A stretch of 64,000 nucleotides of DNA from NCBI GenBank assembly GCA_016235345.1, contig JACRLG010000028.1, positions 64,001 to 128,000 on the forward strand, written 5' to 3'. Source of the DNA: Deltaproteobacteria bacterium. Its GTDB lineage: Bacteria > Desulfobacterota > Desulfobacteria > Desulfobacterales > Desulfatibacillaceae. Position 1 is the first letter of the stretch. Each line of letters begins with the position of its first letter. A program made the translations under genes and the position numbers. The notes below the pieces were generated by a model that saw only the letters and a list, made by a program, of their open reading frames with translations, had not been told where the DNA came from and did not search any database. Of the stretch, positions 30,835 through 46,837 are shown piece after piece.

Positions 30835-30900
30835 TTGGTTGCGTGAAAACTGCCTGAATTTCAAATAAAATTTAAAATACATTTTGAGGCTTTCCTTCAG

Positions 30901-30935
30901 AAGGCTGCCGATTCTTTCGGCAGCCTTTTTTTGTT
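30901..30935 (+). terminator. Second terminator in the tRNA-DUF11 interval
   Basis: AAGGCTGCCG, ATTCTTT loop, CGGCAGCCTT followed by TTTTT. A strong stem with U-tract. Confidence 0.85.
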
Positions 30936-31324: not shown

Positions 31325-34300
31325 ATGCCACGGAAGCATGTTTTAAGGGCTGGCATGATTTTGGTCCTAGCGCTGGGACTTATCCTGCCGATGTTTTCAA
31401 GCCGTTCCCAGGCTGCAATGACGCCTGCCGACACGGTTATAGGAAACGCGGCGACGGCCATTTACCGCGACCAGAGCAACAACGACTACACCACCACCTC
31501 CAACATCGTCCAGTCCGTGGTACTGGAAGTCTGCGGGCTCGATGTATCCCCCTCAGGCCCCACACCCTTGCGGGCGACCCCCGGCCAGAGCATTTATGTT
31601 CCCATAATAGTCACCAACATGGGAAACGGCCTGAACACCTTCAACCTGGCCACCGGCGGCCTTGGAACATACTCCAAGAGCATTTACTTGGACGCCAACG
31701 GAAACGGCGTGGTTGATCCGGCCGAGTCCGCAGGCATCGCCAGCGTGACCCTCAACATGGGCGCAAGCGCCAACATCATAGTGGGCATAACCGTTCCCCC
31801 GGCTGCCGCCCCCGGCGACACCGACGTAAGCAACATTACCGCCACCGGAACCGCTCCTGCCGGATGCTCCGACACCTCCGGCGATTTCACCGTCACAGTG
31901 GTCAACGACGCAGTGATCACCGTCAGCAAGGCAGTGGACAAGAACACGGCCCTTCCTGGCGAAACCCTGACCTACTCGTTCAGGTTCAAGAACGTGGGTT
32001 CCAAGCCCGTTTATTCCCGCGCGGGAGTCAACGGCTACGACATTGACGCCGCAACCGTTGACGGCGTGATGCTGTACGATCAGCTTCCCTCCGGCGCTTC
32101 GTACGTTGCGGCTTCCGCATCGGGAACACCGGCGGCCAACCCCAACGGATACCCCATTTACTCCGCAAACGGCACGAACTGGTTCACTGCGGAAGGCGCA
32201 GTTGTGGGCACGATAACCTACGTGGCCTATTTCATGCCGGACGGCACTCCGGGCAACGGCACCAGCGAAACCGTTCTGGACGTTGACCAGCAGGGAACCT
32301 TCACCTATCAGGTGACGGTTAATAGCCCCTTCGCCGAGGCTGACGGCGAAATCAACAACACGGCGGCCTTCTATTATAACACCTTTACCGCCACGCTCCA
32401 GACGGTCTTCACCAACGAGGTAATAACCACCATCCCGGCCAACGCCACTTCCGACATCGCGGTCAGCCACAGGGTTGTTGATCCCTACACCAACGTGGAG
32501 GAAGACGCGGCCCTCAACTACCAGAACGACAACACGGCGGCCCTGGTTCCCGCAGGAAGCTGGGTCGAGTTCACCCACTCCCTGGCCAACCGCGACGCCA
32601 TCAACAGCGACCTGATCGACCTTTCGGCTATCAACGTGCCCGCAGGCTGGCTGGTTGAGTTCTGGAACGCCAACGGAACAGCCAAGCTCATAGACACCGA
32701 CGGATCGGGAAACGTTGACCTTGGGACCATCGCCCCCCAGACCAGGGTTGATTTCATGGTAAAAGCCTGGGTGCCCGCTGCCGCTTCAGGCGGTCCCTAT
32801 TTCTTCGACATCCAGGCCACCAGCGGCAACAAGCCCGCTGAAATCGACCTTTCCCGCGACAACGTAACGGCGGTTCTTTCCGTTGACGTTGACATCGCTC
32901 AGTACGCCGACGCGGGCGACGCCACCGACGAGCCTTCGGACGGCGACACCAACGGCGCGAACGACGCCGACGACATCCTCGCCGCCGAAACCAGCGCGGT
33001 ACTGCCCGGAAGCACGGCTTCTTACAGGCTTCAGGTGGTCAACATCGGCGGATCGTCAGATTCATACGCCTTGAACGTTTCCGGCAACCCCGCAGGAACC
33101 GTCGCCAAGTTTTATTCCGATCTGAACAACGACGGCGATCACGCTGACGCAGGCGAAGCCGAAATCACCGACACCCCGCTTCTTGGCGGAACCGTGGTAA
33201 GGGTTGCAGGCGTTTTTGGCGGCGGCAACACCACCTTCACCGTTTACGGGGTGGCCAACTTCGTGGCCGGAGATGTCATCCGCCTGAACAAGACCGTGAC
33301 TGCAACCATTTTGAGCGTTGACGCAGTCAACAAGACCATAACCGTTGCAGGCGACCAGACCGCCAACACGGACGCCGGGGACCTTGTATCGGAATCCTAC
33401 AGCGTGATCATGGAAGTGGCAACCACTCCCACCACGCCGCCTTCCGTCAACAACCTGGTGGTCGCAGCCATTTCCAACACCAGCGGCACCGTAGACAACA
33501 TGGACGTGTATTTCGAGGTTCTGGAAGTCTGCTCGGTTGCGGTAAATCCCAACAGCTCCGACCAGATCCCGGCCACGGGCACCACCACCTACATCCACAC
33601 CGTGACCAACTCCGGAAACTCCACCAAGTACGTCAAAATCGACCTTAACATGGCGGGCCTCGGCCTCACCTACCTCTTCCTGGCGGAAGGGGCCAACTGG
33701 AAGGCCTTCGGCGTTGACGGACTTGCCGGAACCGGTGACGACGTTGCTCTGGCTGACGGCGACACCGCCGCCGTGGGCACCGTATTCATCCAGCTTGCGG
33801 CAGGAGCTTCGGCCAATTTCAAGATCAAGGTCTTCGCCCCCGCCGGAACCGCGCCCGGATTGGTGGAAAGCGCCAACATTCAGGCAGTGGCATCCTCGGA
33901 CGGCGATTTCACCACCCTTGGCGACCAGTGCTCGGATACCGCATCCGAAACCACCACGGTCATCGAAGGCTTCCTCCAGGTCACCAAGGCCAGAACGCAT
34001 CTTGATGTCGCATACATAGGCGTCATACCCTCACCAGGCGACGAGATCGTCTACTCGCTAACCTACAAGAACATAGGTCAGCAGACCGCAGTGGCCTGCG
34101 TGATCACGGACCAGATCCCCGACCACACCACTTACGTGGCAGGCTCCCTTTACATTGACGTCAACTGCGACGGCCTCATCGACGGCGGAGACACCCTCCT
34201 TACCGACGGTTCCGGCGACGACACCGCAGAATACGACGGCGTCAACAACATGGTGCGCTTCCGCGTGGGCGCAGGCGCTGACGCCGCAAACGGCGGCAGC

Positions 34301-34351
34301 CTTGCCCCCGGCGCGCAGGGCTGCGTGCTGTTCAAGGTGCTGATCCAGTAG
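31325..34351 (+). CDS. Exported DUF11-repeat surface protein
   Basis: 1008 residues. The signal peptide covers residues 1-30 (core MILVLALGLILPMF, ending SQA). The first mature domain (GNAATAIYRDQSNNDYTTTS onward, about 36-110) is shared with the next gene's product. DUF11-type Ig-like repeats follow (for example ITVSKAVDKNTALPGETLTY, LYDQLPSGASYVAA and the C-terminal VTKARTHLDVAYIGVIPSPG). Several Asp-rich loops look like calcium sites: DANGNGVVDPAE (about 122), DLNNDGDHADAGE (about 598) and DVNCDGLIDGGD (about 944). No membrane anchor or LPXTG is present, so it is secreted or held by partners. GGAAAG precedes the ATG. First of four same-strand exported proteins. Confidence 0.75.
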   Translation: MPRKHVLRAGMILVLALGLILPMFSSRSQAAMTPADTVIGNAATAIYRDQSNNDYTTTSNIVQSVVLEVCGLDVSPSGPTPLRATPGQSIYVPIIVTNMGNGLNTFNLATGGLGTYSKSIYLDANGNGVVDPAESAGIASVTLNMGASANIIVGITVPPAAAPGDTDVSNITATGTAPAGCSDTSGDFTVTVVNDAVITVSKAVDKNTALPGETLTYSFRFKNVGSKPVYSRAGVNGYDIDAATVDGVMLYDQLPSGASYVAASASGTPAANPNGYPIYSANGTNWFTAEGAVVGTITYVAYFMPDGTPGNGTSETVLDVDQQGTFTYQVTVNSPFAEADGEINNTAAFYYNTFTATLQTVFTNEVITTIPANATSDIAVSHRVVDPYTNVEEDAALNYQNDNTAALVPAGSWVEFTHSLANRDAINSDLIDLSAINVPAGWLVEFWNANGTAKLIDTDGSGNVDLGTIAPQTRVDFMVKAWVPAAASGGPYFFDIQATSGNKPAEIDLSRDNVTAVLSVDVDIAQYADAGDATDEPSDGDTNGANDADDILAAETSAVLPGSTASYRLQVVNIGGSSDSYALNVSGNPAGTVAKFYSDLNNDGDHADAGEAEITDTPLLGGTVVRVAGVFGGGNTTFTVYGVANFVAGDVIRLNKTVTATILSVDAVNKTITVAGDQTANTDAGDLVSESYSVIMEVATTPTTPPSVNNLVVAAISNTSGTVDNMDVYFEVLEVCSVAVNPNSSDQIPATGTTTYIHTVTNSGNSTKYVKIDLNMAGLGLTYLFLAEGANWKAFGVDGLAGTGDDVALADGDTAAVGTVFIQLAAGASANFKIKVFAPAGTAPGLVESANIQAVASSDGDFTTLGDQCSDTASETTTVIEGFLQVTKARTHLDVAYIGVIPSPGDEIVYSLTYKNIGQQTAVACVITDQIPDHTTYVAGSLYIDVNCDGLIDGGDTLLTDGSGDDTAEYDGVNNMVRFRVGAGADAANGGSLAPGAQGCVLFKVLIQ

Positions 34352-34443
34352 GAAAGTGACAGTGCTGATCGTTTAACAACAACCATTCCGGGCGTCTTCC
34401 TTGGTGGAGACGCCCGGAAACCCAAAAAGGCGTTTTGGCAGGC

Positions 34444-37400
34444 ATGGCAAGGGCTAATACCACATTCCAGGGAAAGCTGATCAGGGCAATACTGGCGATA
34501 GCCTGTGTCGCCGCCCTGGTTTCGCCCTCCAATGCCGCCCAGACAACCATAACCAACAGGGCTTCCGCCACTTACAAAGATGCAAACAACTCGCCATACA
34601 CAGCGCTTTCCAACCAGGTCAGCGACCAGGTGGCGACTGTTTACGGAATTTCAATTTCGCCGGACGGCACGGCGGCCAACCCCGGAAGAACAATTACAGT
34701 CTCTCCGGCGTCAGTTGTACACATCCCCTATACATTGGAAAATACAGGCAGCGGCGACGATTCCTATCAACTCGACCTGAGCAACCTTCAGGGCGACGAT
34801 GGGAACATTTCCGGCCTCGCCCTTTACGTAGATATCAATCAGAACGGACGGGCGGACGCCCTTGAACCTGCCTACGACAATAACGCCCCCCCAGTGCTCG
34901 CTCCAGGCGGAGTGATTCACCTTGTGGCAATGGGACAGGCGCCCGCAGGGCTTGCGGGCGGCTTCATCCTTGTGAATCTTTCGGGTTTTTCAAACAATGA
35001 TCCAAATGCAAGCGACACTCAAAACGCCGCCAGGGTGGAGATATCAAACGAAGGATTGATGAGTGGCACAAAAAGCGCCGCGCCCGGCAACGTGAAACCG
35101 GGCGACACGGTGGCCTATACCATTATATTTGCCAGCGAAGGCGCAAGCCCGGTTAAGGCTGCGTCCTTTAACATTGATATTGACGGTAACGGGGTCGCGG
35201 AAGCGAAAAGCGGCCTTCTGGTTTCAGACGCCCTGCCCCAGGGAACGGCCTTTTCAGCCGGAACCCTGGCTTTTGTTTCAAACATTGTCGGCTCCGCGCC
35301 CATTTACGAAGGCTCGGACGGCATGTGGCGGACGTCGTTTGCGGCCACGCCTCTTCCGGTAATCAAGGTTGGCCTTTTCCTGCCGGAAAACCCGCAAGGC
35401 ACAGCCTTCAACAATGGCGTTTCGGGAAGTCTTTCGTTCAGAGTCCTTGTTAATCCGGGTTTCGGAACCGGCGTTCTGGTCAACAAGGCCATAATCGATT
35501 ATGCCGGCGCTTCGGGGCCAAAAACCGCCGAAACCAACGAGACCATAGTTAACGTGGCGTCCCCGGCGAAGGTGGTGGCCGACGACACCGACGACAACGG
35601 CGCTCTTTCGGGTTCGGGCCAGGCCGATGACCCGGATGATCTCATGTCCGTGGATTTCGCCGCCAAGGGTTCCCAGGTGTCCTTTCTCAACGAGGCGGCC
35701 AACCTGGGAAGCGGGAATGACACCATTAATATTCTTTTCGATTCCGCAAAATCCCTCAACCTGCCTCAGGGGGCTGCGGTTGAATTTCGCAGCATTCAGG
35801 GACTGCCCCTCACAGACTCCGACGGCGACGGCAACCCCGATCTTGGAAGCCTCGCCCCCCAGGAACGCAAGAGCTTTTTTACAGTGCTTTCGCTTCCCGC
35901 AGGCGTCTCGGCCAGCGACATTTTGGTGGCCGTAAAGGCGGTGTCTGCTATTGATTCTTCGATTTCCGATCATACCTATGACTTTGTGGGCAGGGTTGAC
36001 ACGGTTGACGTCAAGGTGGAGGTGGGGGTAAGCGCCTCGGTCCAGATAGGGGCAACCACGGCCCTTGCCCGCCAGGCCCTGGTTAACGGCAAGATCACGG
36101 CCCACGAATACGACGCAGCCGGAAATTTCGTAAGGAGCAAGGTGTTTTTAACCGACGGCTCGGCGCTCATCAACCGCGACGCGGCAGGCAACGCCTATCC
36201 CCTCTACAACTGGCTGCGGGACGGCTTCTCCTACCGCACAACAATAGCCGAGGAGATCAACGGTTATTCCTACTACGGCACTCCCATTTTCTACCGGTCG
36301 GATTTCACCACGGTGACCAATCCGGGCGACGTGTTCACGCGAGGCGAGATAACGGTAAAAGTGCTCGTCGACGGCACCAAGCTCCTTATCGTTCCCCTCG
36401 ATCCAGCGGGCTATGTTTATGACGCCATAACCAACGCCAGGGTGGATGGAGCCTGCGTCACCTTCTACCGCTTTGACGGACCGGATTTCACCACTTATAC
36501 AAAGGTTGACCCGGCGCTTCTGGACATCTACCCCAACGGGCAGACCAGCCAGGAAAACAGCCAGCTTTCCGGGCCGTTCGACGCCGCAGGCCAGGTTGAC
36601 ACCGGAAAATCATCAGGCGCATTCGAGTTCCGCTTCACCAACTACAATCAGAACCTGGACGGCTGGTACTTTATCGAGACCACCTTCGACTGCGGCCTTC
36701 CAGGCTCCAGGCCCGATCTCGCCAAGACCTACGCGCCCGTGACGCTGAACCGGAACGCAATCTGGAATCCGGCGGACGGCAAGCCGTACAGGGGCGAGCG
36801 GTTCTATATTGATTCGGGCTTTCCGGGGGCCATCCTTTTAAGGGTGCCGCTTTATCCGGCAAGCCTGGAACCTTTGCGGGTGGAAAAGACCGTCAGCCCA
36901 GACAGCGCTGAAACCGGCGACATAATGACCTTCACAGTCAAGGTCAAAAACGCCGACCCGGACCATACGGTTTACGGGGTCGAAGTGTACGACATAATGC
37001 CGCGTGACGTGCGCTATGTTCCGGGCTCCACCAAAACGGACGGCAAGGCCGCGCAGGACCCCGAAATTTCTCCCCAAGGCGTGGGCCTTACCTGGAAGAT
37101 CGGGGAGATTGCGGCGGGAAAAACCATTTCCATTACCTACAAGGTAAGGGTGGCGGCGGGGGCCACGGACGGCAAGAAGGCCAACACCGCCAGGGCCGCC
37201 GGGTTCGCGGATCCGGGAAAAAGCCAGCAGGTGTCATCCAACGTGGCAACGGCCTTCTTCACCATCAAAAAGGACCTTTTCACCGACAGGGCCTTTATAA
37301 TCGGCAAGGTCTTTTCGGACGACAACGGCGACCGGATTCAAAACGGCGAAGAACAGGGGCTTTCCGGCGTAAAGATATACATGGAGGACGGGCGCTACGT

Positions 37401-40400
37401 CGTTACGGATTCCGAGGGCAAGTATCACATGGATAACATTGTCCCCGGCACCCACATTTTAAAGGTTGACCCTTCCACCCTGCCGCCCGGCTCCATCCTG
37501 GCCCCTCTGGACAACCGCAGCGGCAAGGAGCCCGGAACCGCCTTTGCCGACGTTTTTCCGGGCGATCTTTTCAAGGTCAATTTCCGGGTTGTGCCCAAGG
37601 CCTTTATCCCCGCCCTGTGCATAGACGGCGGAGACATTCCCGGAAAGCTTGTGGTTGCAAGGACCATTGCGGACGTTTTGGTGGACGCAGAGGGCAAGGT
37701 AAGGATCAAAAACCGGGTCGAGCTTAAAAACGCCTTCGGCTTTGCTCTCTATGAACTTGAATATAAGGAAAAATCACCTGAACTGCCCGGAAAGGGGACC
37801 GCAACGCTCAACGGCTCGCCCTTCGAGGACCCGTCAATATCGGCGGACGGATATTCCTGGAAACTTCCCCTTATTGAGCCGGGCCGCACCCTTCGCCTTG
37901 AATTCCTCTCCGATCTTCCGGCCAGGGAAGGAAAGGTGGAAGCCTCATGCGCCTTCAGGGCCGAGCCTGCCGGAAAGGATGTCGTCATCCCGGTTTCTGC
38001 GGATGCGGTTTTCTCCGTGGCCGCGCCCAGGGAATACAGGCTCTCCTTAAACTTTGCCCAGGGCTCGGACGAACTTTCTGCGGAAGCGAAAAAAAGCCTT
38101 GGGCCGGTGGTCCAGCATTTGCGCAAAAGCGGTTATTCCAAACTGTTGGTCGAGCTTGAAAAGGGTGCGCCTGTCAAGGGCAAAACCGCCCCGGACAGCC
38201 CGGAGCTTTCCCGCAGGCGGTCCGAATCGGTGGCCCGGTTCCTCAAGGAGTCTTTGCTTGACACTTCAAAGGTGGCAATAGGCTTTGGGGCGCCGCCCGC
38301 CGGGAACGAGCCGGAAAAGCCAGCCTCACGCAAAGATGCCGATCACGGCATTGAAATCAAGGTTCTTTCCATAGGCGCAGGCGCTGACACAAAAGAGATC
38401 GCCGTCGGCGACCAGATGGGCAAGGGCATCTACAGGCTGCGCCTGGGTTTTGTGAGCCAGTATCCGGTTGCCGAATTGAGCGACCCAAAACTTTTCGTGG
38501 GCTTTCCCGAAGGATTTTTCTACCTGGGCGGCACCGCCACAATAAACGGCGAGCCTGCGGCCCCGGTAAAAACCGAAAACTTTTTCACTGTCCCGGTTGA
38601 AGAAAAGCTCATTTCGGAGCCTGTTTATTTTGCCATGGATTTTCTTTCCTCCGGCGCGATCTCCTGGAAAAGCACTCCGGTCTGCGTCCTGGTCCGCACC
38701 AAAAACGGCAAGGTCGTGGTCATTGCCTCCAATATTTCCGATTCCGATCCTGCCGCATTGAAGCTCCTCACCCTTTACGAGGGCGGTGGCCAGGGCGGGG
38801 CACCGGCCCCGGAAGACCTGGAGAGACTCCGCAAGGCACAGCCTCCGGGAATTCTCTATCCCGAACCGGGCCAGACCAATGCCGGCTCGGCCACATCCAT
38901 AAAGATACGGATAGCCACAGGCTCCGGCCACAGGCTTCTGGTGAACGGAAAGGAAATCGGAAAAGAGAGGGTTGCCCAGTCTTCATCCGACAAGGCTCTG
39001 GGACTTGAAACAATTGAATATCTTGGCGTGCCGCTCGACAAGGCCGAAAACACCATCGAGCTTTTTTCGGGTGAAACCCTCCTGGACAGAAGGGTTCTCG
39101 TAAAGGGCGGCGAGGCCAGGAACCTTTCCTTTGAAATTTATCCCAAGCGCCCTCCCGCCGACGGCAAGAGCCCGGCCTACGTGGCCATAAGCCTTGTGGA
39201 CGCAGCGGGAAACCCGGTAAACGACGAGACATCCCTGACTGTAGCCGTTGACAGGGGGGACGTGTTCGACAAGGAAACCGGAAAATTCAAGCGCATGCCC
39301 GATGACGGCTTTGCAGTGAAAACGGTTGCAGGCAGGGCCGTGGTGAAACTATCCCCTGCTTCCACCACCGAAAGGCGTAGGCTAACGGTTAGTTACGGCG
39401 ACATCGAAAAAACCCTCGAAGTGGGATATTACCCGGAAAAACGCGAGCTAATCATGGTGGGCGGCCTGGAGGCCTGGGCAGGGTTCGGAAACGCCGAGCC
39501 GGAAAAACAGCCTGAATCGGGCGACATGCCATTCGATCATTCCAATGGCGGCACCGAAACCTACGGCAGGGCCTCCATTTTCGCAAAGGGCAGCAGGGAC
39601 GGCTTCACCGGCACCCTCCGCTACGACACCAGGGCCAACCCGGACGCCGACGTGCTTTTGATGGAAAACACGCCCGGAACCTCTGACAACAGGCTTTACC
39701 CGGTTTACGGGGACGACGCCGAGCAGTTTTTCGAGGCCAAAAGCGCCGAGCGGCTTTACTTGAAGGTGGAGCGCGACCTTTCCTACGCCATGTTCGGCGA
39801 CTACGCCACGGGCCTTGGAAGCGACCTTTCCTTCAACCGCTACCAGAGAACCTACAACGGCGGCCTAATAAACCTGGAGGATGAAAACCTTGGCTCGGCC
39901 CGCCTCTTCGTTTCCCGCAACCGCCAGTCCCTCGTAAGGGAAAACATCGAGGCGCGCGGGCTCTCAGGCCCATACAGGCTGCAAAACGCCGACATCACGC
40001 TTTATTCGGAAACCGTGGTCATCGAAACCCGCGACCGCCACCATCAAAGCGTGGTGATAAATGAAAAGACCATGAGCAGGAACTCCGATTACGACATCGA
40101 CTATGAATCGGGCGTTCTGCTGTTTCACGAGCCCATCGGCAGTTTTGATTCAACCTTCAACCCTCAGATCATAAGGGTTACCTACGAGACGAAAAACCTC
40201 GATGAAAACCGCTACGTCTACGGCGCAAGGCCCCAGGTCAAGTTCTTTTCGGGAAAGCTGAAACTTGGTCTTCTGGGAGTCGTGGAGGAACACGCCGTTT
40301 CGGACAAGAGCCAGGGCGGCGCGGACATCGTTTACGACGACGGAAAACACGTGAAGGTCATTGCCGAGCTTTCCACAACCGAGAGCTTCGACGCCGAAAC

Positions 40401-41868
40401 CTTCGATCCCGCAAGCGGAACCGCCCGGAGGGTCGAGGCCGAAATCAGGGATGTTAAACGAACCGGCATCAAGGCCCGCTACCAGAAGGTTGACGACGGT
40501 TACGAAAATTTCTCCACAGCCGCAACCGGAGAAGGAGCAGAGGTTTTCGGCGCATCGGCCAAAACGGAATTCGGCGAGGATGCCAAAAAGACCGCCTTTG
40601 TGGCTGATTTTTCCGGTGAAAACAGCGAGAGCTATACCAGAAAAAGCTCCGAGGTCCGGGTTGAGCGGAGCTTCGGAAAAAACCTCACCCTTCTCGGGGG
40701 AACCAGGTGGGCCAGGGACGAGGGAGGAGCCGACCCGGAAGAATCGGTGCTTGCGGTGGCCGGGGCCAAAATGAGCCCCACTTCCCGCCTGAGCCTTTCA
40801 CTGCGAAGGGAACAGAGCCTCACCGGCGAGGTTTCCGGAGATTACGCATCCACCAAAACAGTGGGCCAGGCAAGCTACCGGGTGACTGATAACGTCACTG
40901 CGGAAATGGCCAGCGAATACCAGGAACGAGCAGACAAGGACATCTGGCTCACCACTGCGGGCCTAAGCTCCAGGCTTGGCGAAAACACCACCGCCTACGG
41001 CAAGTACACCCTGGACGATTCCGTGAGCGGTTGGCGCAACGCCAGCAACCTTGGGCTCACCCACCAGTTCATCAATCGCGGCGGCTTCACCGCCGACGGC
41101 GGCGCTGAGTGGGTGAAGACCATATCCGGCGACAGCGCGGACGGCGATTACGTCGCGCCCAGGTTCGGGTTCACCTATCTTCAGAGCAACCGCTACAAGA
41201 TTACGGGCCGCGAGGAACTCCGTTTCGGCGAAAACGGAACCGAGTCCGTAACCACCCTGGGCGGCACAATGAAGGCCGGGCGCGACCTTACGCTTTTTTC
41301 CCAGGCAAGATACTTTGCGGCTGAGAACGACGAGTTGAGCCTTCTGTTGGGCTCCGCTTACAGGCCGGTGGGCAAAGACCGACTTCAGCACCTCACAAAG
41401 TTTCGGTGGACATCAAAAACCGGCGACTCCGACGAGGAAAGAATCGTCCTTTCCCATCACGTCAACTTCGAGCCCCTGCCCCGCCTGAAATTCATGGGCG
41501 AAGTGGCGGGCAAGTACGTCAGCATGGATGACGAGGAGGCCACCTCATACCTCACCAGGGGCCGGGTGATTTACGACATCACCGACAGGGTGGATGTGGG
41601 CTTTCAGGCAGGATTCCTTCATCAGGTGGATTCCGACACAAGGCTCACGGCCTGGGGGCCGGAAATAGGCGTAATGATGTTCTCCGATTTCTGGCTCTCT
41701 CTGGGATACAATTTCAACGGGTTCCGGGACGAGGATTTCAGCGAGGCCAATTACTGGTCGGAAGGTTTCTACGTCAAGGTGCGGTTCAAGTTCGACGAAA
41801 ACACCCTCTACGACATAAACGACCGTCTGCGCAGGCCCTCGGAAAAAGGCGGGGCCGCAGTTGAATAA
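34444..41868 (+). CDS. Giant outer-membrane protein: DUF11/SdrD-like/OmpA-like domains plus C-terminal beta-barrel
   Basis: About 2,474 residues from the ATG at 34444. A TTG at 34435 is possible and neither has a strong Shine-Dalgarno. A signal peptide (residues 1 to about 34) precedes the N-terminal module shared with the upstream gene (ITNRASATYKDANNSPYTA). Then come Ig-like segments, a DUF11 repeat (about 812-935, VEKTVSPDSAETGDIMTFTV), an SdrD-type B domain (about 950-1020, GKVFSDDNGDRIQNGEEQGL) and an OmpA-like region (about 1197-1290, with LSRRRSESVARFLKESL). From about 1665 to the end the sequence is amphipathic strand-rich and barrel-like, with NSDYDIDYESGVLLFHEPI, a motif of large outer-membrane barrel families. 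It probably anchors the locus products at the surface; exporter versus adhesin roles are unresolved. The last residue is not aromatic. Confidence 0.7.
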   Translation: MARANTTFQGKLIRAILAIACVAALVSPSNAAQTTITNRASATYKDANNSPYTALSNQVSDQVATVYGISISPDGTAANPGRTITVSPASVVHIPYTLENTGSGDDSYQLDLSNLQGDDGNISGLALYVDINQNGRADALEPAYDNNAPPVLAPGGVIHLVAMGQAPAGLAGGFILVNLSGFSNNDPNASDTQNAARVEISNEGLMSGTKSAAPGNVKPGDTVAYTIIFASEGASPVKAASFNIDIDGNGVAEAKSGLLVSDALPQGTAFSAGTLAFVSNIVGSAPIYEGSDGMWRTSFAATPLPVIKVGLFLPENPQGTAFNNGVSGSLSFRVLVNPGFGTGVLVNKAIIDYAGASGPKTAETNETIVNVASPAKVVADDTDDNGALSGSGQADDPDDLMSVDFAAKGSQVSFLNEAANLGSGNDTINILFDSAKSLNLPQGAAVEFRSIQGLPLTDSDGDGNPDLGSLAPQERKSFFTVLSLPAGVSASDILVAVKAVSAIDSSISDHTYDFVGRVDTVDVKVEVGVSASVQIGATTALARQALVNGKITAHEYDAAGNFVRSKVFLTDGSALINRDAAGNAYPLYNWLRDGFSYRTTIAEEINGYSYYGTPIFYRSDFTTVTNPGDVFTRGEITVKVLVDGTKLLIVPLDPAGYVYDAITNARVDGACVTFYRFDGPDFTTYTKVDPALLDIYPNGQTSQENSQLSGPFDAAGQVDTGKSSGAFEFRFTNYNQNLDGWYFIETTFDCGLPGSRPDLAKTYAPVTLNRNAIWNPADGKPYRGERFYIDSGFPGAILLRVPLYPASLEPLRVEKTVSPDSAETGDIMTFTVKVKNADPDHTVYGVEVYDIMPRDVRYVPGSTKTDGKAAQDPEISPQGVGLTWKIGEIAAGKTISITYKVRVAAGATDGKKANTARAAGFADPGKSQQVSSNVATAFFTIKKDLFTDRAFIIGKVFSDDNGDRIQNGEEQGLSGVKIYMEDGRYVVTDSEGKYHMDNIVPGTHILKVDPSTLPPGSILAPLDNRSGKEPGTAFADVFPGDLFKVNFRVVPKAFIPALCIDGGDIPGKLVVARTIADVLVDAEGKVRIKNRVELKNAFGFALYELEYKEKSPELPGKGTATLNGSPFEDPSISADGYSWKLPLIEPGRTLRLEFLSDLPAREGKVEASCAFRAEPAGKDVVIPVSADAVFSVAAPREYRLSLNFAQGSDELSAEAKKSLGPVVQHLRKSGYSKLLVELEKGAPVKGKTAPDSPELSRRRSESVARFLKESLLDTSKVAIGFGAPPAGNEPEKPASRKDADHGIEIKVLSIGAGADTKEIAVGDQMGKGIYRLRLGFVSQYPVAELSDPKLFVGFPEGFFYLGGTATINGEPAAPVKTENFFTVPVEEKLISEPVYFAMDFLSSGAISWKSTPVCVLVRTKNGKVVVIASNISDSDPAALKLLTLYEGGGQGGAPAPEDLERLRKAQPPGILYPEPGQTNAGSATSIKIRIATGSGHRLLVNGKEIGKERVAQSSSDKALGLETIEYLGVPLDKAENTIELFSGETLLDRRVLVKGGEARNLSFEIYPKRPPADGKSPAYVAISLVDAAGNPVNDETSLTVAVDRGDVFDKETGKFKRMPDDGFAVKTVAGRAVVKLSPASTTERRRLTVSYGDIEKTLEVGYYPEKRELIMVGGLEAWAGFGNAEPEKQPESGDMPFDHSNGGTETYGRASIFAKGSRDGFTGTLRYDTRANPDADVLLMENTPGTSDNRLYPVYGDDAEQFFEAKSAERLYLKVERDLSYAMFGDYATGLGSDLSFNRYQRTYNGGLINLEDENLGSARLFVSRNRQSLVRENIEARGLSGPYRLQNADITLYSETVVIETRDRHHQSVVINEKTMSRNSDYDIDYESGVLLFHEPIGSFDSTFNPQIIRVTYETKNLDENRYVYGARPQVKFFSGKLKLGLLGVVEEHAVSDKSQGGADIVYDDGKHVKVIAELSTTESFDAETFDPASGTARRVEAEIRDVKRTGIKARYQKVDDGYENFSTAATGEGAEVFGASAKTEFGEDAKKTAFVADFSGENSESYTRKSSEVRVERSFGKNLTLLGGTRWARDEGGADPEESVLAVAGAKMSPTSRLSLSLRREQSLTGEVSGDYASTKTVGQASYRVTDNVTAEMASEYQERADKDIWLTTAGLSSRLGENTTAYGKYTLDDSVSGWRNASNLGLTHQFINRGGFTADGGAEWVKTISGDSADGDYVAPRFGFTYLQSNRYKITGREELRFGENGTESVTTLGGTMKAGRDLTLFSQARYFAAENDELSLLLGSAYRPVGKDRLQHLTKFRWTSKTGDSDEERIVLSHHVNFEPLPRLKFMGEVAGKYVSMDDEEATSYLTRGRVIYDITDRVDVGFQAGFLHQVDSDTRLTAWGPEIGVMMFSDFWLSLGYNFNGFRDEDFSEANYWSEGFYVKVRFKFDENTLYDINDRLRRPSEKGGAAVE

Positions 41869-41969
41869 CTTGCGATGTCGCAGCGACTGGTATAGTCTAA
41901 AATATACATCTGGAATTTTTTTTGAGCGGCGCGTTACCAACGGAATAATCAGCCCTGGGGAGGAAACCG

Positions 41970-44951
41970 ATGCGGAAAAGGGATTGGGATAAGGCAAGCG
42001 GCCCCGGCTCCGGGCCGTTTCCGTTTAAACGGAAAGGGCTTTTTTTCACGGCGGCCCTGGCCTTCCTGGCTCTTTTCAGCCTGTTTGCCGTCACGGACCT
42101 TTTCGCCGATGCATATCCCCCTTACTGGACCTCAGTCCCGCCCCAGTCACCGAACCCCGTGCATTACCTGCCGGTCGCCTGGCCCGCAGACAGTGCCTGG
42201 ATCGGCACCAAAAGCCAGGGCGCTGACCTCCGAGACAAGAAAAACAGCGACCAGTCAACGGGCGGCACGGTTCCCAACGGCTACGTCAGCGTCAGCTCGG
42301 GCTGCACCGACCAGTCCCTGCCCAGCGTTTACTGGTACTACGACAGCGCCACCCAGGTCCTTTTCTTCCGCTGGCGTGTGGAGTCGGGACCCCAGACCTA
42401 CTGCACGAGCGGCGTCGCTCCTCCAAGTTACGCTTCCGGTGACCCCTGGAACTCGGCCCTCTATACGGTTCTTATAGATACGGACGGCGACGGATACCGG
42501 GAATACGCCATGCATCTTGACGGCAGTTCCGGCGGCCCGGCAACCGCCGTGGACCGCCTGGTGGGAATTTACAGCAACGACAACACCCAGAACGTCGACT
42601 ACGTAACCTACAACACCACGGTTTTCGCCACCGCCCACAACCCGTCGGCCTTCGTGGACCAGGCCACCAGCCGGATACTTAATTTCCAGAACAGCCTCAC
42701 GCCCACTACCACCTGGCCAAGGTGCGGCACAAACACGCTGTGGGATTTCGGAACCTCGCGGGTGGTCCCGGTTCCCGGAAGCACATGCGGCGAAATGTTC
42801 GTGGATTACCAGATCCCTTACGCGCTTCTAAACGGCCCCGGCGGTCCGGCCCGGCCTGCCCTTACCCCCAATACGCCCATAGCACTTGCATTCGCTACGG
42901 CGAACAGCTTAAACGATCCTTTTCAAAAAGACTTTGTGGCAAACGGCTCCTTCACTGCCAATGCAAACAACTGCTTTCCCTTTTCCGATTACATAGTGCC
43001 CGGCCAGTTGCTGACCCTTTCAGGCCCTTTGATAAACGACGTTACGGCAACGGCTCCAACCGCCTTAGACTGCACCAGCGATATTACCGCCTGGGTTCAG
43101 GACGCCCTTGCCAACGTCTCCGGCTCCTGCGGGCTCACCATCAACAGCGTGGAGTTCTGGTACTACGCGGATAAGAACGGAGATGGAAATGCAAACGACG
43201 GTTCCACCTGGACCAAGTTGGGCGATGCTTCGGCCGGGCCCACGCCGACTTGGGTATATACCTGGAACACCAGCGTCGTTCCTAACGGTGATTATATAAT
43301 CGGAGTTAAAGCCACGGATTCGGAGGGCAACAGCACCTTCAGCTACAAGACGGCGGCCGAGGTCTCCCCGCCCAATTACTCCAACCCCTCACCGACTCCC
43401 GGCATACAGACAGTGTCCATTACGGTGGACTGCGGGGTTGATTCCCTCATATCAGGTTACGTTTACAACGATGCCAACCGGAACGGGGAAAAGGACTCCG
43501 GGGAAACCGGCACCGGCGCAAGCCCCCATTACGTGAAGGCCTGCCAGAGCGGAAGCGTTGTGGCCACGGCCACCGTTGACCCTGCCACCGGATATTATCA
43601 GATGGCAGGGGTGCCCTACGGTGCAATCACCATCCTTGAGGACACTGACAACCTTGCAAACTGTGTCCCGGCGGACCCGGCGGGCTGGGTCTCCACCACG
43701 TCCAACACCATTTCCTTCACCTATTCTTCGAGTGACCCGATTCTTGAAAATATCAATTTCGGAGATTACAATGGCTGCCAGGTTAGCGGCACCGTGTTCA
43801 GGGACAGCGGCGACGGAAGCGCCGGGAGTACAGATGCCACCAATTCCGTGTGGAACAGCCCCAACGAAAAAGGCATCCCCCAGGTAATAGTGAAGGCCTG
43901 CGCCGACACATCCTGCGCCACAACAATAGCCACCACGGCCACCTCCGACGCAGGGGCCTACACGCTATGGGTTCCGGCCTCATATAACGGGTCCACGGTT
44001 TACATTGTAAAAACCGACCCGGCGGGCTGGCTTTCGAGCGGCAACTCAATAGGCGCGGCGGTCCAGAACAACGCGGAACAGCCCCTTGCCAACAGGAACC
44101 GCCTCTCCTTTACAATGGCGTCGGGAACCAACAGGACGGATTACAATTTCGGCAACGTCGAAAACATATCCATAACCCCGCCCCAGTCTTACGTGGTGTC
44201 GCCGGGCTCCAGCCTCACAATACGGCATACCATCAACATTAAAACCCCGGGGAAAGTCGCCCTCTCCCTTTCCTCTCAACAATCTTGGACTTACGCCGTT
44301 TACGCCGACCTTGACTGCGATGGCCAGCTTGACGGCAATGCCCTCGTACCGGTGGGCGGATATTATTCGCTGAACGGGGGGGCGAGCCTGGGAGCGGGCG
44401 ATGCCTGCGTGATTATTCGCACTGTGGTTCCCACATCTGTCGGGCTTGGCACAGTTGAGGGCCTCACGGTGGCCGCCAACGAAGACTGGTCCAACACAGC
44501 GGTTTCTTACAACGACATTGATTTCACATCCGATACCATTACGGCATCAGGCCCGGCTGCCCAGCTTCACCTTGAAAAATTTGTCAGAAACGTCACTCTT
44601 TCGCATTCGTTTTCTTTCTCCAACGAAGTCTCGCCCACCGACGTTCTGGAATACAGGATAGATTTCAAGAACATCGGGGCCGAACCCCAGAAGGACATTG
44701 TGTTTGGCGACAACGTGCCTGACAACACCCAATTCCTGCCGCGACTTTACCTGGGAGCCACGAAGGATGTCATGGTTACGGTGAACGGCGGCACCTATTA
44801 CGGCACCGTTGACGACAGCCCGGATACGGACGGAGTAACCCTTGAATACGACATTCTTTCCATAAGGCTTCAGTCCCTTTGCGGCGCTCCCTGCATAACG
44901 CTTGAACCCGGCCAGACAGGAAGCATCTATTACCGGGTAAGTGTAGATTGA
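41970..44951 (+). CDS. Exported SdrD-like/DUF11 surface protein
   Basis: 993 residues with GGGGAGGAAA before the ATG. A long basic N-region precedes the hydrophobic core (FFTAALAFLALFSLFAVTDL), ending FADA. The first 400 or so residues have no family that I recognise, and include a calcium-like loop DTDGDGYREY. Two SdrD B-type domains follow (about 494-590, SGYVYNDANRNGEKDSGE; about 603-720, SGTVFRDSGDGSAGS). The end carries a DUF11 repeat (about 870-993, EVSPTDVLEYRIDFKNIGAE and YYRVSVD). Many Cys residues (CTSDI, SGSCGLT, LDCDGQ) suggest disulfides. It is 101 bp after the giant barrel gene on the same strand. Confidence 0.7.
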   Translation: MRKRDWDKASGPGSGPFPFKRKGLFFTAALAFLALFSLFAVTDLFADAYPPYWTSVPPQSPNPVHYLPVAWPADSAWIGTKSQGADLRDKKNSDQSTGGTVPNGYVSVSSGCTDQSLPSVYWYYDSATQVLFFRWRVESGPQTYCTSGVAPPSYASGDPWNSALYTVLIDTDGDGYREYAMHLDGSSGGPATAVDRLVGIYSNDNTQNVDYVTYNTTVFATAHNPSAFVDQATSRILNFQNSLTPTTTWPRCGTNTLWDFGTSRVVPVPGSTCGEMFVDYQIPYALLNGPGGPARPALTPNTPIALAFATANSLNDPFQKDFVANGSFTANANNCFPFSDYIVPGQLLTLSGPLINDVTATAPTALDCTSDITAWVQDALANVSGSCGLTINSVEFWYYADKNGDGNANDGSTWTKLGDASAGPTPTWVYTWNTSVVPNGDYIIGVKATDSEGNSTFSYKTAAEVSPPNYSNPSPTPGIQTVSITVDCGVDSLISGYVYNDANRNGEKDSGETGTGASPHYVKACQSGSVVATATVDPATGYYQMAGVPYGAITILEDTDNLANCVPADPAGWVSTTSNTISFTYSSSDPILENINFGDYNGCQVSGTVFRDSGDGSAGSTDATNSVWNSPNEKGIPQVIVKACADTSCATTIATTATSDAGAYTLWVPASYNGSTVYIVKTDPAGWLSSGNSIGAAVQNNAEQPLANRNRLSFTMASGTNRTDYNFGNVENISITPPQSYVVSPGSSLTIRHTINIKTPGKVALSLSSQQSWTYAVYADLDCDGQLDGNALVPVGGYYSLNGGASLGAGDACVIIRTVVPTSVGLGTVEGLTVAANEDWSNTAVSYNDIDFTSDTITASGPAAQLHLEKFVRNVTLSHSFSFSNEVSPTDVLEYRIDFKNIGAEPQKDIVFGDNVPDNTQFLPRLYLGATKDVMVTVNGGTYYGTVDDSPDTDGVTLEYDILSIRLQSLCGAPCITLEPGQTGSIYYRVSVD

Positions 44952-45046
44952 GCCAGGGCGTAAAGCGTCTCTGGCGCGCGTTTTGAATTCGTGTTATAGT
45001 TTAATTTTGGGTTTGTTTCCCTCATTCGCAAGAAAAGGAGCGGCAA

Positions 45047-45598
45047 ATGGCATCTTTTATCGGCAGGATCGGCGTTACGGGGGGGCGGGTAAGACCGGCG
45101 CATCTCGCGGCTGTGGCTTGTCTTGTTGTTGCGATGGCCGCTTCTGCGGTTGTTGCGGAAGGCCCTGCAAAGGACCCTCTGAATTTGAAGACCACCGCCT
45201 TCATGGTTGAAACAACAACTAAGGACGGCAAACAGGTTGAGGCTTTGAAGCCCCTGCCCAAGGGCATTCTTCCCGGAACCCTTATCCAGTACAACATTAC
45301 GGGCAAAAACCAGGGCAAAGTCGAACTGAAGGACTTAAGGACCGAAGGCAAGGTTCCGCCCGAAACCCGTTACGTTGACAAATCCGCCAGATGCGACAAC
45401 GCCGGAGAGGTTCAGTTTACCTTCAACAGCGGCAAAACCTGGGCAAAAGCGCCCCTGACCAAAACAATAACCACGCCCGAAGGCCAAAAAATGACCGTTA
45501 CCGTTCCGCCAGAGGAATACAACGGGGTACGCTTCGTGGTGAAAAAACTCAAGGCCGGAGCCTCCTTCACCGGCGTTTACAGGGTTCTTCTCAAGTAA
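45047..45598 (+). CDS. Small exported DUF11-like protein
   Basis: 183 residues; AAAAGGAG precedes the ATG. The signal peptide (core LAAVACLVVAMAASAVVA) ends near residue 38. The mature part is a single DUF11-like fold: LPKGILPGTLIQYNITGKNQ, VPPETRYVDKSARCDNAGEV, and the terminal ASFTGVYRVLLK. It is the shortest and last of the four exported proteins and may be a subunit or cap of the same surface assembly. A perfect palindrome/terminator follows. Confidence 0.65.
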   Translation: MASFIGRIGVTGGRVRPAHLAAVACLVVAMAASAVVAEGPAKDPLNLKTTAFMVETTTKDGKQVEALKPLPKGILPGTLIQYNITGKNQGKVELKDLRTEGKVPPETRYVDKSARCDNAGEVQFTFNSGKTWAKAPLTKTITTPEGQKMTVTVPPEEYNGVRFVVKKLKAGASFTGVYRVLLK

Positions 45599-45616: not shown

Positions 45617-45660
45617 AGACAACAAAGCCCTCCGGGAATTCCCGGAGGGCTTTGTTGTCT
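45617..45660. terminator. 44-bp perfect palindrome, terminator of the surface-protein genes
   Basis: Left arm AGACAACAAAGCCCTCCGGG (45617-45636), centre AATT, and a fully complementary right arm ending TTTGTTGTCT at 45660. It lies 18 bp after the last stop and includes CTTTG rather than a long T-run. A bidirectional terminator is likely. Confidence 0.75.
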
Positions 45661-45728
45661 GAGCAGGCCTATTACCGCCTTGACCAGCTTCGGCCTTGGG
45701 GCGGTTACTGTGGCTGCCCCTTGATTTA

Positions 45729-46837
45729 TTACTCGGAGCAATAAATATTTCAATTTTAGCGACCTGTGCTATGGTCCCGCACATGAACCTCAACGACACC
45801 CGCAAATTGAGTCCCAAGGCACAGGAAGCACTGCGTATTCGCGCCGTCCAGGCGGTCTTGGACGGTAAGGCGCAAAAAGAAGTGGCCCAGGTCTTTGGAG
45901 TGACCACTCGATCCGTCAACACCTGGGTCAAGATATATCGCGCACGGGGTTTCGAGGGCCTCAAAGCCGCTCGACAGGGACGCCCCAAGGGTGGCGCGCT
46001 TCTGCCCTGGCAGGCCGCCCAAATCGTTCGGTCCATCAAGGACAACATGCCGGATCAATTGCATTTTCCCTTTCATTTGTGGACCCGCGAAAGCGTGGCG
46101 CTTCTGATTGAAGACCGTTTCGACATCCGCCTGTCCCGCTGGACCGTGGGGCGCTACCTGAAGCGCTGGGGCTACACCCCGCAAAAGCCCCTGAAACGGG
46201 CCTACGAGCGCGACCCGGTGGCGGTTAAAATTTGGATGGACGAGGATTATCCTGCCATCCACAAACAAGCCCACGCCGAAAACGCGCTCATCCTCTGGGG
46301 CGACGAGATGGGCATGCGCTCCGACCATGCGGTTGGGCGGACCTACGGCAAACGCGGCGAAACGCCTGTGGTGAAGACGCCCGGCAAGCGTTTTTCGTGC
46401 AACATGATTTCCGCCATCAGCAACATGGGGCATCTGCAATTCATGGTGTTTGACGGAACTTTCGACGCAGGGGTGTTCATCGAGTTCCTGCGCCGCCTGG
46501 TCCGCTCCAATGACCGCAAAATGTATCTGATTCTGGATAACCTTCGTGTTCATCATTCAAAGCGGGCCGCCCGGTGGCTGGAAAAGCATCATGAACAAAT
46601 AAAGCTGTTTTTCCTGCCAGCCTACAGCCCGGAGCTGAACCCGGACGAGCGCCTGAACCAGGACGCGCGGCCAATGCCGATAAAAACCGACGCGCCAGGA
46701 ACGCAGAAGAGCTTAAAAACAATATCCGAGGATACCTGAGAAAGCGCCAGTGCCAGCCGGACATCGTCCAGAATTACTTCGAAGACAAGGCTGTTCGATA
46801 TGCGTTCTGAAATGAAAACCTTTTATGCTCCCGGTAA
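45729..46837 (+). mobile_element. IS630-family insertion sequence
   Basis: Terminal inverted repeats TTACTCGGAGCAATAAA (from 45729) and, on the minus strand, TTACCGGGAGCATAAA (ending at 46837) bound a 1,109-bp element. A TA dinucleotide flanks each end (45727-45728 and 46838-46839), as expected for IS630 insertion into TA. The transposase gene inside is frameshifted near its 3' end. Confidence 0.85.
45783..46739 (+). pseudogene. IS630-family transposase, 3' frameshift
   Basis: 318 residues in the open frame. A helix-turn-helix N-terminus (QKEVAQVFGVTTRSVNTWVK) precedes the DDE catalytic domain: LILWGDEMGM, YLILDNLRVHHSK and PAYSPELNPDERLNQD. After that Asp the frame is wrong. In the -1 frame the typical C-terminus resumes (NRRARNAEELKNNIRGYLRK ... 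YFEDKAVRYAF) and would stop at 46810. The gap between the codons for QD and AN is five bases instead of six, which points to a one-base deletion at 46665-46669. The DDE triad is upstream of the shift. Programmed frameshifting at the nearby A5 run is less likely. Confidence 0.8.

Follow-up and report, generated by a model that had tools for sequence, protein, structure and literature searches.

A four-gene locus encoding DUF11-type proteins and a predicted giant outer-membrane barrel, a candidate surface-protein export or assembly system

We analyzed a stretch of 64,000 nucleotides from a Deltaproteobacteria bacterium of the Desulfatibacillaceae (Desulfobacterota; assembly GCA_016235345.1, contig JACRLG010000028.1, positions 64,001 to 128,000; hereafter the window) and focused on four tandem open reading frames (ORFs) at positions 31325–45598, named genes A, B, C and D. 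All four lie on the plus strand and are separated by gaps of 92 (A-B), 101 (B-C) and 95 nt (C-D). The initial annotation of this region had proposed a tandem four-gene locus of exported DUF11/SdrD-like proteins, and the four ORFs were indeed located there; judged by eye, the N-termini of all four proteins resemble signal peptides. An in-frame TTG at 34435, nine bases before the ATG of gene B, would extend its product to 2477 aa, and residue numbers within B follow this longer version.

The domain content of the four proteins is dominated by DUF11-type and SdrD-like modules. In the Pfam searches, DUF11 and SdrD_B in B (Table 1) as well as SdrD_B in C (E 5.1e-8) scored over the cut-off, and so did the DUF11-type repeats of A and B in NCBIfam; all DUF11-type matches of C and D stayed under the cut-offs. 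The last domain of A is also covered by the NCBIfam family B_ant_repeat (residues 902–945, protein over the cut-off). The front half of A is homologous to that of B (BLASTP, 29% over 539 columns, E 3e-34), and the profile of the Ig-like pair of B resembles the C-terminal domains of GH2 beta-galactosidases, with a weak likeness to invasin. Altogether, Pfam and AlphaFold2 bear out the earlier description of B as a protein joining Ig-like, SdrD-like and OmpA-like parts to a barrel, with the OmpA part being degenerate. Protein C contains 17 cysteines; A, B and D have 7, 6 and 2, respectively.

Table 1 Features of the locus, with positions in the window and residue numbers in the corresponding protein.
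Feature	Position	Strand	Remarks
Terminator-like hairpin	30899..30929	+	Between tRNA genes and gene A; consensus match only
Gene A	31325..34351	+	1008 aa; Ig/DUF11-type repeats; signal peptide by eye
C-terminal DUF11-type domain of A	34004..34348 (limits approximate)	+	Pfam DUF11, residues 902–940, under cut-off
Gene B	34444..41868	+	2474-aa giant from ATG; predicted outer-membrane barrel
A-like N-terminal module of B	34537..36018	+	BLASTP A vs B
DUF11 (CLIPPER) domain of B	36874..37224	+	Pfam, residues 814–930, E 2.7e-14
SdrD_B-like domain of B	37306..37470	+	Pfam, residues 958–1012, E 2.4e-7
Degenerate OmpA-like domain of B	38053..38325	+	Pfam, residues 1207–1297, E 1.9e-4, under cut-off; without GHTD...LSxxRA motif
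Two Ig-like domains before barrel of B	38872..39441	+	AlphaFold2 and sequence profile
Predicted giant beta-barrel of B	39451..41796	+	AlphaFold2; about 38 strands by our count
Beta-sandwich-like insert between barrel strands of B	39928..40191 (limits approximate)	+	DSSP
Gene C	41970..44951	+	993 aa, exported (signal peptide by eye); two SdrD_B stretches
Gene D	45047..45598	+	183 aa; single DUF11-like domain; conserved D family member
Inverted repeat directly 3' of D	45620..45661 (approximate)	+	Read by eye; not in list of terminator tool

AlphaFold2 predicted a barrel for the C-terminal part of B, as had been anticipated from the sequence. The model of residues 1480–2477, based on 71 alignment rows, reached a mean predicted local distance difference test score (pLDDT) of 83.2 and a predicted template modelling score (pTM) of 0.77; two Ig-like domains come first, followed by almost all strands and a short helix at the end. 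The barrel of a Geomonas silvestris relative (L068) was modelled with a pLDDT of 85.4 and a pTM of 0.83, with nearly identical rows in both alignments, so that the two models are not fully independent. Counted from the DSSP strings, without coordinates and without the insert, there are about 38 strands in B and about 36 in L068, with an uncertainty of about two due to the imprecise limits of the insert. According to a 2020 review (PMC7463736), SprA with its 36 strands is the largest outer-membrane barrel ever identified. Because alignments with small closed porins extend from the initial through the final strands in each model (model ranges 197–975 in B and 14–803 in L068), the models suggest a closed barrel in both proteins.

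The insert, 80–90 residues long, contains six or seven short strands and follows the seventh barrel strand; from this position in the chain alone, it may be regarded as plug-like. Seventeen columns are invariant across all 71 rows of the alignment, with 7/17 in the insert and 14/17 in the insert together with its flanks (residues 281–499 of the modelled construct). The barrel alignment (A4) took 70 of the 77 usable barrels, omitting L071, L072, L076, L078, L099, L103 and L115, after L062 and L085 had been skipped in the collection of those 77; two further alignments took 36 (A7) and 69 (A9, without L044 and L045) of the 71. Relatives of about 810 aa, which represent stand-alone barrels, end in GKF or AFF at their C-terminus. 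Classical outer-membrane proteins likewise end in Phe as a rule.

Structural searches placed both models among outer-membrane barrels. In Foldseek, Deinococcus SlpA complexes were the best PDB matches of both, followed at lower ranks by receptors, LptD, MtrB, SprA (ranks 36 and 42 for B; 7, 15, 27 and 37 for L068) and FimD. SprA was not among the 50 best VIA rows of either model. Here, the usher FimD ranked first for B (Z 15.2, 341 aligned residues, root-mean-square deviation 10.4), filling the first five rows, and for L068 (Z 16.5, 370 aligned, root-mean-square deviation 12.7), where OmpM1 also appeared at Z 13.2. For L068, which was compared as barrel alone, OprD-family porins reached a near-tie with FimD (Z 15.7 vs 16.5), and because they lie within one Z unit of it, we did not use VIA ranks to assign a function. 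By these models, B is probably a large outer-membrane barrel to which no solved structure is closely related.

One rival explanation takes B as a very divergent usher with the DUF11 proteins as its pilins; it started from a likeness between the conserved block and the usher plug, noticed by eye, and FimD heads both VIA rankings. An insert near the N-terminal strands is common to both barrels, and the partners are Ig-like. However, hhalign comparisons with six K-12 ushers, whole and in pieces, gave nothing significant, although this was a weak test with few effective sequences. The usher profile PF00577 had no match in the Pfam scan of B, and OprD-family porins nearly tie with FimD in VIA. PF00577 and the chaperone profile PF00345 match another pair of genes in the same genome, on contig C2, both under the cut-off; PF00345 gave this single match in the genome and none at the three giant loci, while an E. 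coli control was positive. Judged by these profiles, usher homology is unproven, and the usher-type platform was dropped as the main explanation; we consider such a platform very improbable. The C2 genes may themselves represent a divergent chaperone-usher set: a 907-aa usher-like protein (L124, C2:210702–211391; PF00577 E 6.6e-6) lies near a PapD_N-like match (C2:212612–212875, E 0.0019). A comparison with an usher-like gene of this genome gave a probability of 6.6%, likewise not significant.

Several other known barrel families likewise gave no match in B. The Pfam scan of B showed no autotransporter or intimin barrel family (E up to 1), no TonB-receptor plug or barrel family, no SlpA_C and no DUF560/type XI secretion system (T11SS) family. 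In NCBIfam, models of SprA and of the C-terminal tails of the type IX secretion system (T9SS) were absent from the matches of A–D (E up to 1) and from the families listed for four relatives (E up to 0.01; for L068, the best 25 of 33 families). None of the profiles tested assigns B to the T9SS, the ushers, the autotransporters or the T11SS.

As a next aspect, we considered the location of the front half of B. Among 61 family members, the segment before the barrel contains an OmpA match in 40, including the weak match of the window (E 2.9e-5, under the cut-off), and a SPOR match in one; the motif GHTD...LSxxRA is present in 37. These segments (alignment A5) represent 60 of 63 listed members, without L062, L085 and L103, and the window. 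OmpA and SPOR domains are normally periplasmic and bind peptidoglycan, in OmpA proteins via the Asp and Arg of this motif. Since a peptidoglycan-binding domain precedes the barrel in most giants, the front half of B probably lies in the periplasm instead of being displayed as a fibre. In the simplest topology, the barrel would span the outer membrane, with the front half and the OmpA-like domain on its periplasmic side; the front half may alternatively be threaded outwards through the barrel, although such a passage need not be assumed. As the OmpA domain of the window is degenerate, wall binding may have been lost in this copy of B.

This distribution weakens one part of the initial annotation, namely that B itself displays the fibre. 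Such a self-displaying adhesin would send its own DUF11 front half out in an autotransporter-like manner and hold the peptidoglycan by OmpA, with A, C and D binding the stalk. The homology between the front half of B and its partner A speaks for it, as does an Acinetobacter fibrillar adhesin with a DUF11 stalk and an OmpA-like anchor, described in PMC12617251. However, the peptidoglycan-binding domain lies between front half and barrel, the stand-alone barrels have no passenger, and B lacks any match to an autotransporter barrel family, which makes this explanation improbable.

The same domain architecture is also compatible with a passive anchor, the main rival of an active export function. 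Here, B would be a porin-like tether between outer membrane and peptidoglycan, comparable to SlpA/SDBC of Deinococcus or to OmpM, and the DUF11 partners, exported otherwise, would dock onto it as a coat. The Foldseek and OmpM1 matches and the frequent OmpA domain fit this picture, as does a stand-alone barrel that weakly matches SlpA_C (E 3e-4, under the cut-off), and a passive anchor would also explain the gene linkage described below. The structural matches are, however, not specific to one barrel family, and a tether would have no obvious need for 36–38 strands and for an insert region conserved more strongly than the rest of the barrel. We regard this alternative as rather unlikely overall.

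Relatives of the giant are widespread. A single scan of GTDB representative contigs revealed at least 355 stretches encoding them, and the 80 best were kept for analysis (for L047, no giant was called and the row was dropped). Record titles of these 80 include Geobacter, Geomonas, Desulfatibacillum, Desulfosarcina, Nitrospirota, Zixibacteria, Gammaproteobacteria, Alphaproteobacteria, Campylobacterales, Lentisphaeria, Latescibacterota and others; many records are metagenome bins and may be impure. Besides the genome of the window, B was matched at E up to 1e-10 in 9 of 39 relative genomes. The genome of the window itself harbors two more giant loci, on contigs C26 and C23, and 22 of its 25 DUF11 matches fall in the three giant loci. 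The locus on C26 (L009, L010, L179) spans about 25 kb with a D-like gene, an A-like gene, a giant, frames of 2913 and 1444 aa and a 958-aa partner; the two frames overlap and may represent one broken gene. On C23 (L011), a 328-aa partner, a D-like protein of 164 aa, an 1825-aa giant and a 925-aa partner are encoded. Stand-alone barrels of about 810 aa (L145, L146, L147, L150) have no front half, and large DUF11-type proteins adjoin each of them, while a 3160-aa protein (L148:7364–16846) combines many DUF11-type domains and the barrel core in a single chain.

The gene order of the window recurs in its closest relatives; neither a missing barrel nor neighbours lacking conserved linkage, the two outcomes that would have spoken against the initial annotation, was observed. 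In G001, one contig carries A-B and another B(end)-C-D. G003 has A-B-C on a contig that stops within C, and D was not found there. In G006, A-B, with A in two frames, and C-D lie on separate contigs. Upstream neighbours were compared at 54 loci where the giant is closed and upstream DNA extends over 3 kb or more. At 52 of them, same-strand members of a single DUF11-type similarity cluster lie upstream, at 45 within 400 nt, and 38 have a D-size member of this cluster upstream. The most common order is medium-D-medium-giant (8 loci). Because none of the listed orders places D after the giant, the D-last order of the window represents a minor branch. The phylum was also sampled evenly with 148 genomes; at E up to 1e-10, 15 of these contained the barrel core and 7 the D family, and in 7/7 of the latter D and giant share a contig. 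Under the assumption of independent genomes, which does not hold, the probability of this co-occurrence by chance would be 2.4e-8.

The two models, the linkage and the co-occurrence uphold the other part of the initial annotation, a dedicated system that includes a giant barrel. Another idea is that B is a small-molecule receptor or porin with the DUF11 neighbours being merely surface stalks. TonB-dependent receptors and porins are indeed frequent generic Foldseek matches, but no TonB-receptor family was detected in B by Pfam, and the detection of D-family proteins only beside giants would be left unexplained; we consider this idea very improbable as well.

The flanks of the locus contain genes for tRNA-Val and tRNA-Asp, which precede gene A by about 535 nt. 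The long inverted repeat after D is likely a transcription terminator. Directly after the locus, an IS630-type transposase gene (DDE_3, E 3.3e-37) is located at 45696–46739.

A further line of evidence comes from the C-termini of the partners, i.e. the DUF11-type proteins encoded with a giant. They typically end with the terminal strand of a DUF11-type domain, showing hydrophobic residues at positions −8, −6, −4 and −2. This pattern was present in 136/164 partners compared to 3/292 other ORFs of the same loci. Several of the 28 partners missing the pattern show such a strand ending one or two residues before the terminus. Because partners had first been grouped by similarity, the comparison was repeated with partners defined by position only, as the same-strand run upstream of a giant: 101/138 fitted, compared to 2/129 other plus-strand ORFs. 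The controls in both comparisons were ORFs called mechanically with a minimum length of 200 aa, and some of them are surely not genes.

As a second control, we considered DUF11 ORFs away from giant loci in the 148 genomes, of which 34 have a visible stop (two running off contigs were left uncounted). None of the 26 in genomes without a giant fitted the pattern, and 2 of the 8 elsewhere in giant-bearing genomes did (on a 36-kb contig of G005 and a short contig of G116); one of the eight shares a contig with a giant at a distance of about 8 kb. The fitting protein in G005 (L237, contig C36, where no giant was found) is possibly an unlinked partner. In the genome of the window, 9 of 11 partner ORFs fitted, the exceptions being D and the 2913-aa ORF that overlaps the next frame. 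A and C end in VLFKVLIQ and IYYRVSVD, both on a DUF11-type strand, and D ends in GVYRVLLK. The partner of a 1700-aa variant lacked the pattern. A shared N-terminal start was considered as a second signal and discarded as too patchy (6/39 large, 31/69 medium and 0/39 small partners, 28/60 giants). The gene linkage and the common C-terminus indicate that partners and giant belong together.

We propose that this locus represents one copy of an envelope system found widely among bacteria, in which B serves as exporter or assembly platform for C-terminally addressed DUF11 surface proteins; we give this proposal slightly less than an even chance. B would be an outer-membrane beta-barrel of about 36–38 strands that carries a plug-like insert towards its N-terminal end, and the front half of B would reside in the periplasm and hold the peptidoglycan, in most members via the OmpA-like domain. 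A, C and D, as DUF11/SdrD proteins, would leave the cytoplasm by Sec and be addressed to B by the terminal DUF11-type domain at their C-terminus. They would then be passed through or onto the barrel to the cell surface, with the insert possibly gating the lumen, and B would assemble or hold them there as a fibre or coat.

Several observations weigh against this proposal. At the level of the barrel, no profile matched a known translocon, the structural matches point to barrels in general and to no single family, and an energy source or inner-membrane partner was not identified at the loci. The OmpA domain of the window lacks the usual motif. With respect to linkage, 8 of the 15 giant-bearing genomes showed no D at E up to 1e-10; six of them carry divergent variants, four of which are stand-alone barrels. 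The next largest neighbour cluster, present at 21 loci and signalling-like by its example, varies in side and strand. Regarding the C-terminus, D misses the pattern, at position −8 only, and just 2/4 closed partners of the ~810-aa barrels show it. Moreover, the pattern is just the last DUF11 strand and could serve polymerisation instead of export.

Compared to known systems, the proposed platform shares single traits with each of them. Usher barrels such as FimD and PapC likewise lie in the outer membrane, carry an insert near the N-terminal strands and handle Ig-like partners, but have 24 strands compared to the 36–38 counted here; profile similarity was not detected, nor was a chaperone match at the giant loci of the window's genome. 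The SlpA/SDBC proteins of Deinococcus also have a very large barrel, joined to a cell-wall-binding part that would correspond to the OmpA-like domain of most giants; their front part, however, is SLH-type. T9SS, as outlined in the 2020 review (PMC7463736), has a barrel of similar size, SprA/Sov (36 strands in SprA, about 36–38 here), and its cargo, which includes surface proteins, likewise carries a C-terminal signal domain, of about 80 residues. In contrast, the giants are fused to DUF11/OmpA parts and encoded in a dedicated gene cluster, the families listed for the proteins scanned include no SprA or tail model, and few of the best-80 hosts are relatives of Bacteroidota. T11SS also combines an outer-membrane barrel with dedicated linked cargo, but this cargo ends in an eight-stranded barrel domain and not in DUF11 (PMC12282271). 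Fibrillar adhesins of the DUF11 (CLIPPER) type have stalks of DUF11 and SdrD_B, with one Gram-negative example carrying an OmpA-like anchor (PMC12617251), whereas most partners here end on a DUF11-type domain and accompany a giant barrel.

In the open-access literature of PubMed Central, which defined the scope of our search to the exclusion of subscription papers and preprints, no described system of such kind was among the titles and abstract beginnings listed. We consider the kind of system as new and put its function forward as a hypothesis. In its broadest and more tentative form, which we believe clearly short of an even chance, this would be a previously undescribed secretion and assembly system in many outer-membrane phyla, in which a SprA-sized, often wall-tied barrel without detectable kinship to known translocons exports C-terminally addressed DUF11 proteins and has independently reached type IX logic.

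If true, Geobacter relatives, Nitrospirota, sulfate reducers and Campylobacterales would share an unrecognised route for building their surface, featuring one of the largest membrane barrels known. The proposal would provide a function for a family that is now recognised in databases only via its DUF11 repeats and OmpA domain, and a C-terminal address that can be tested. Adhesion by the DUF11 proteins is plausible from known DUF11 biology, as presented in PMC12617251, and the system may bear on the attachment of these bacteria to minerals, electrodes or partner cells.

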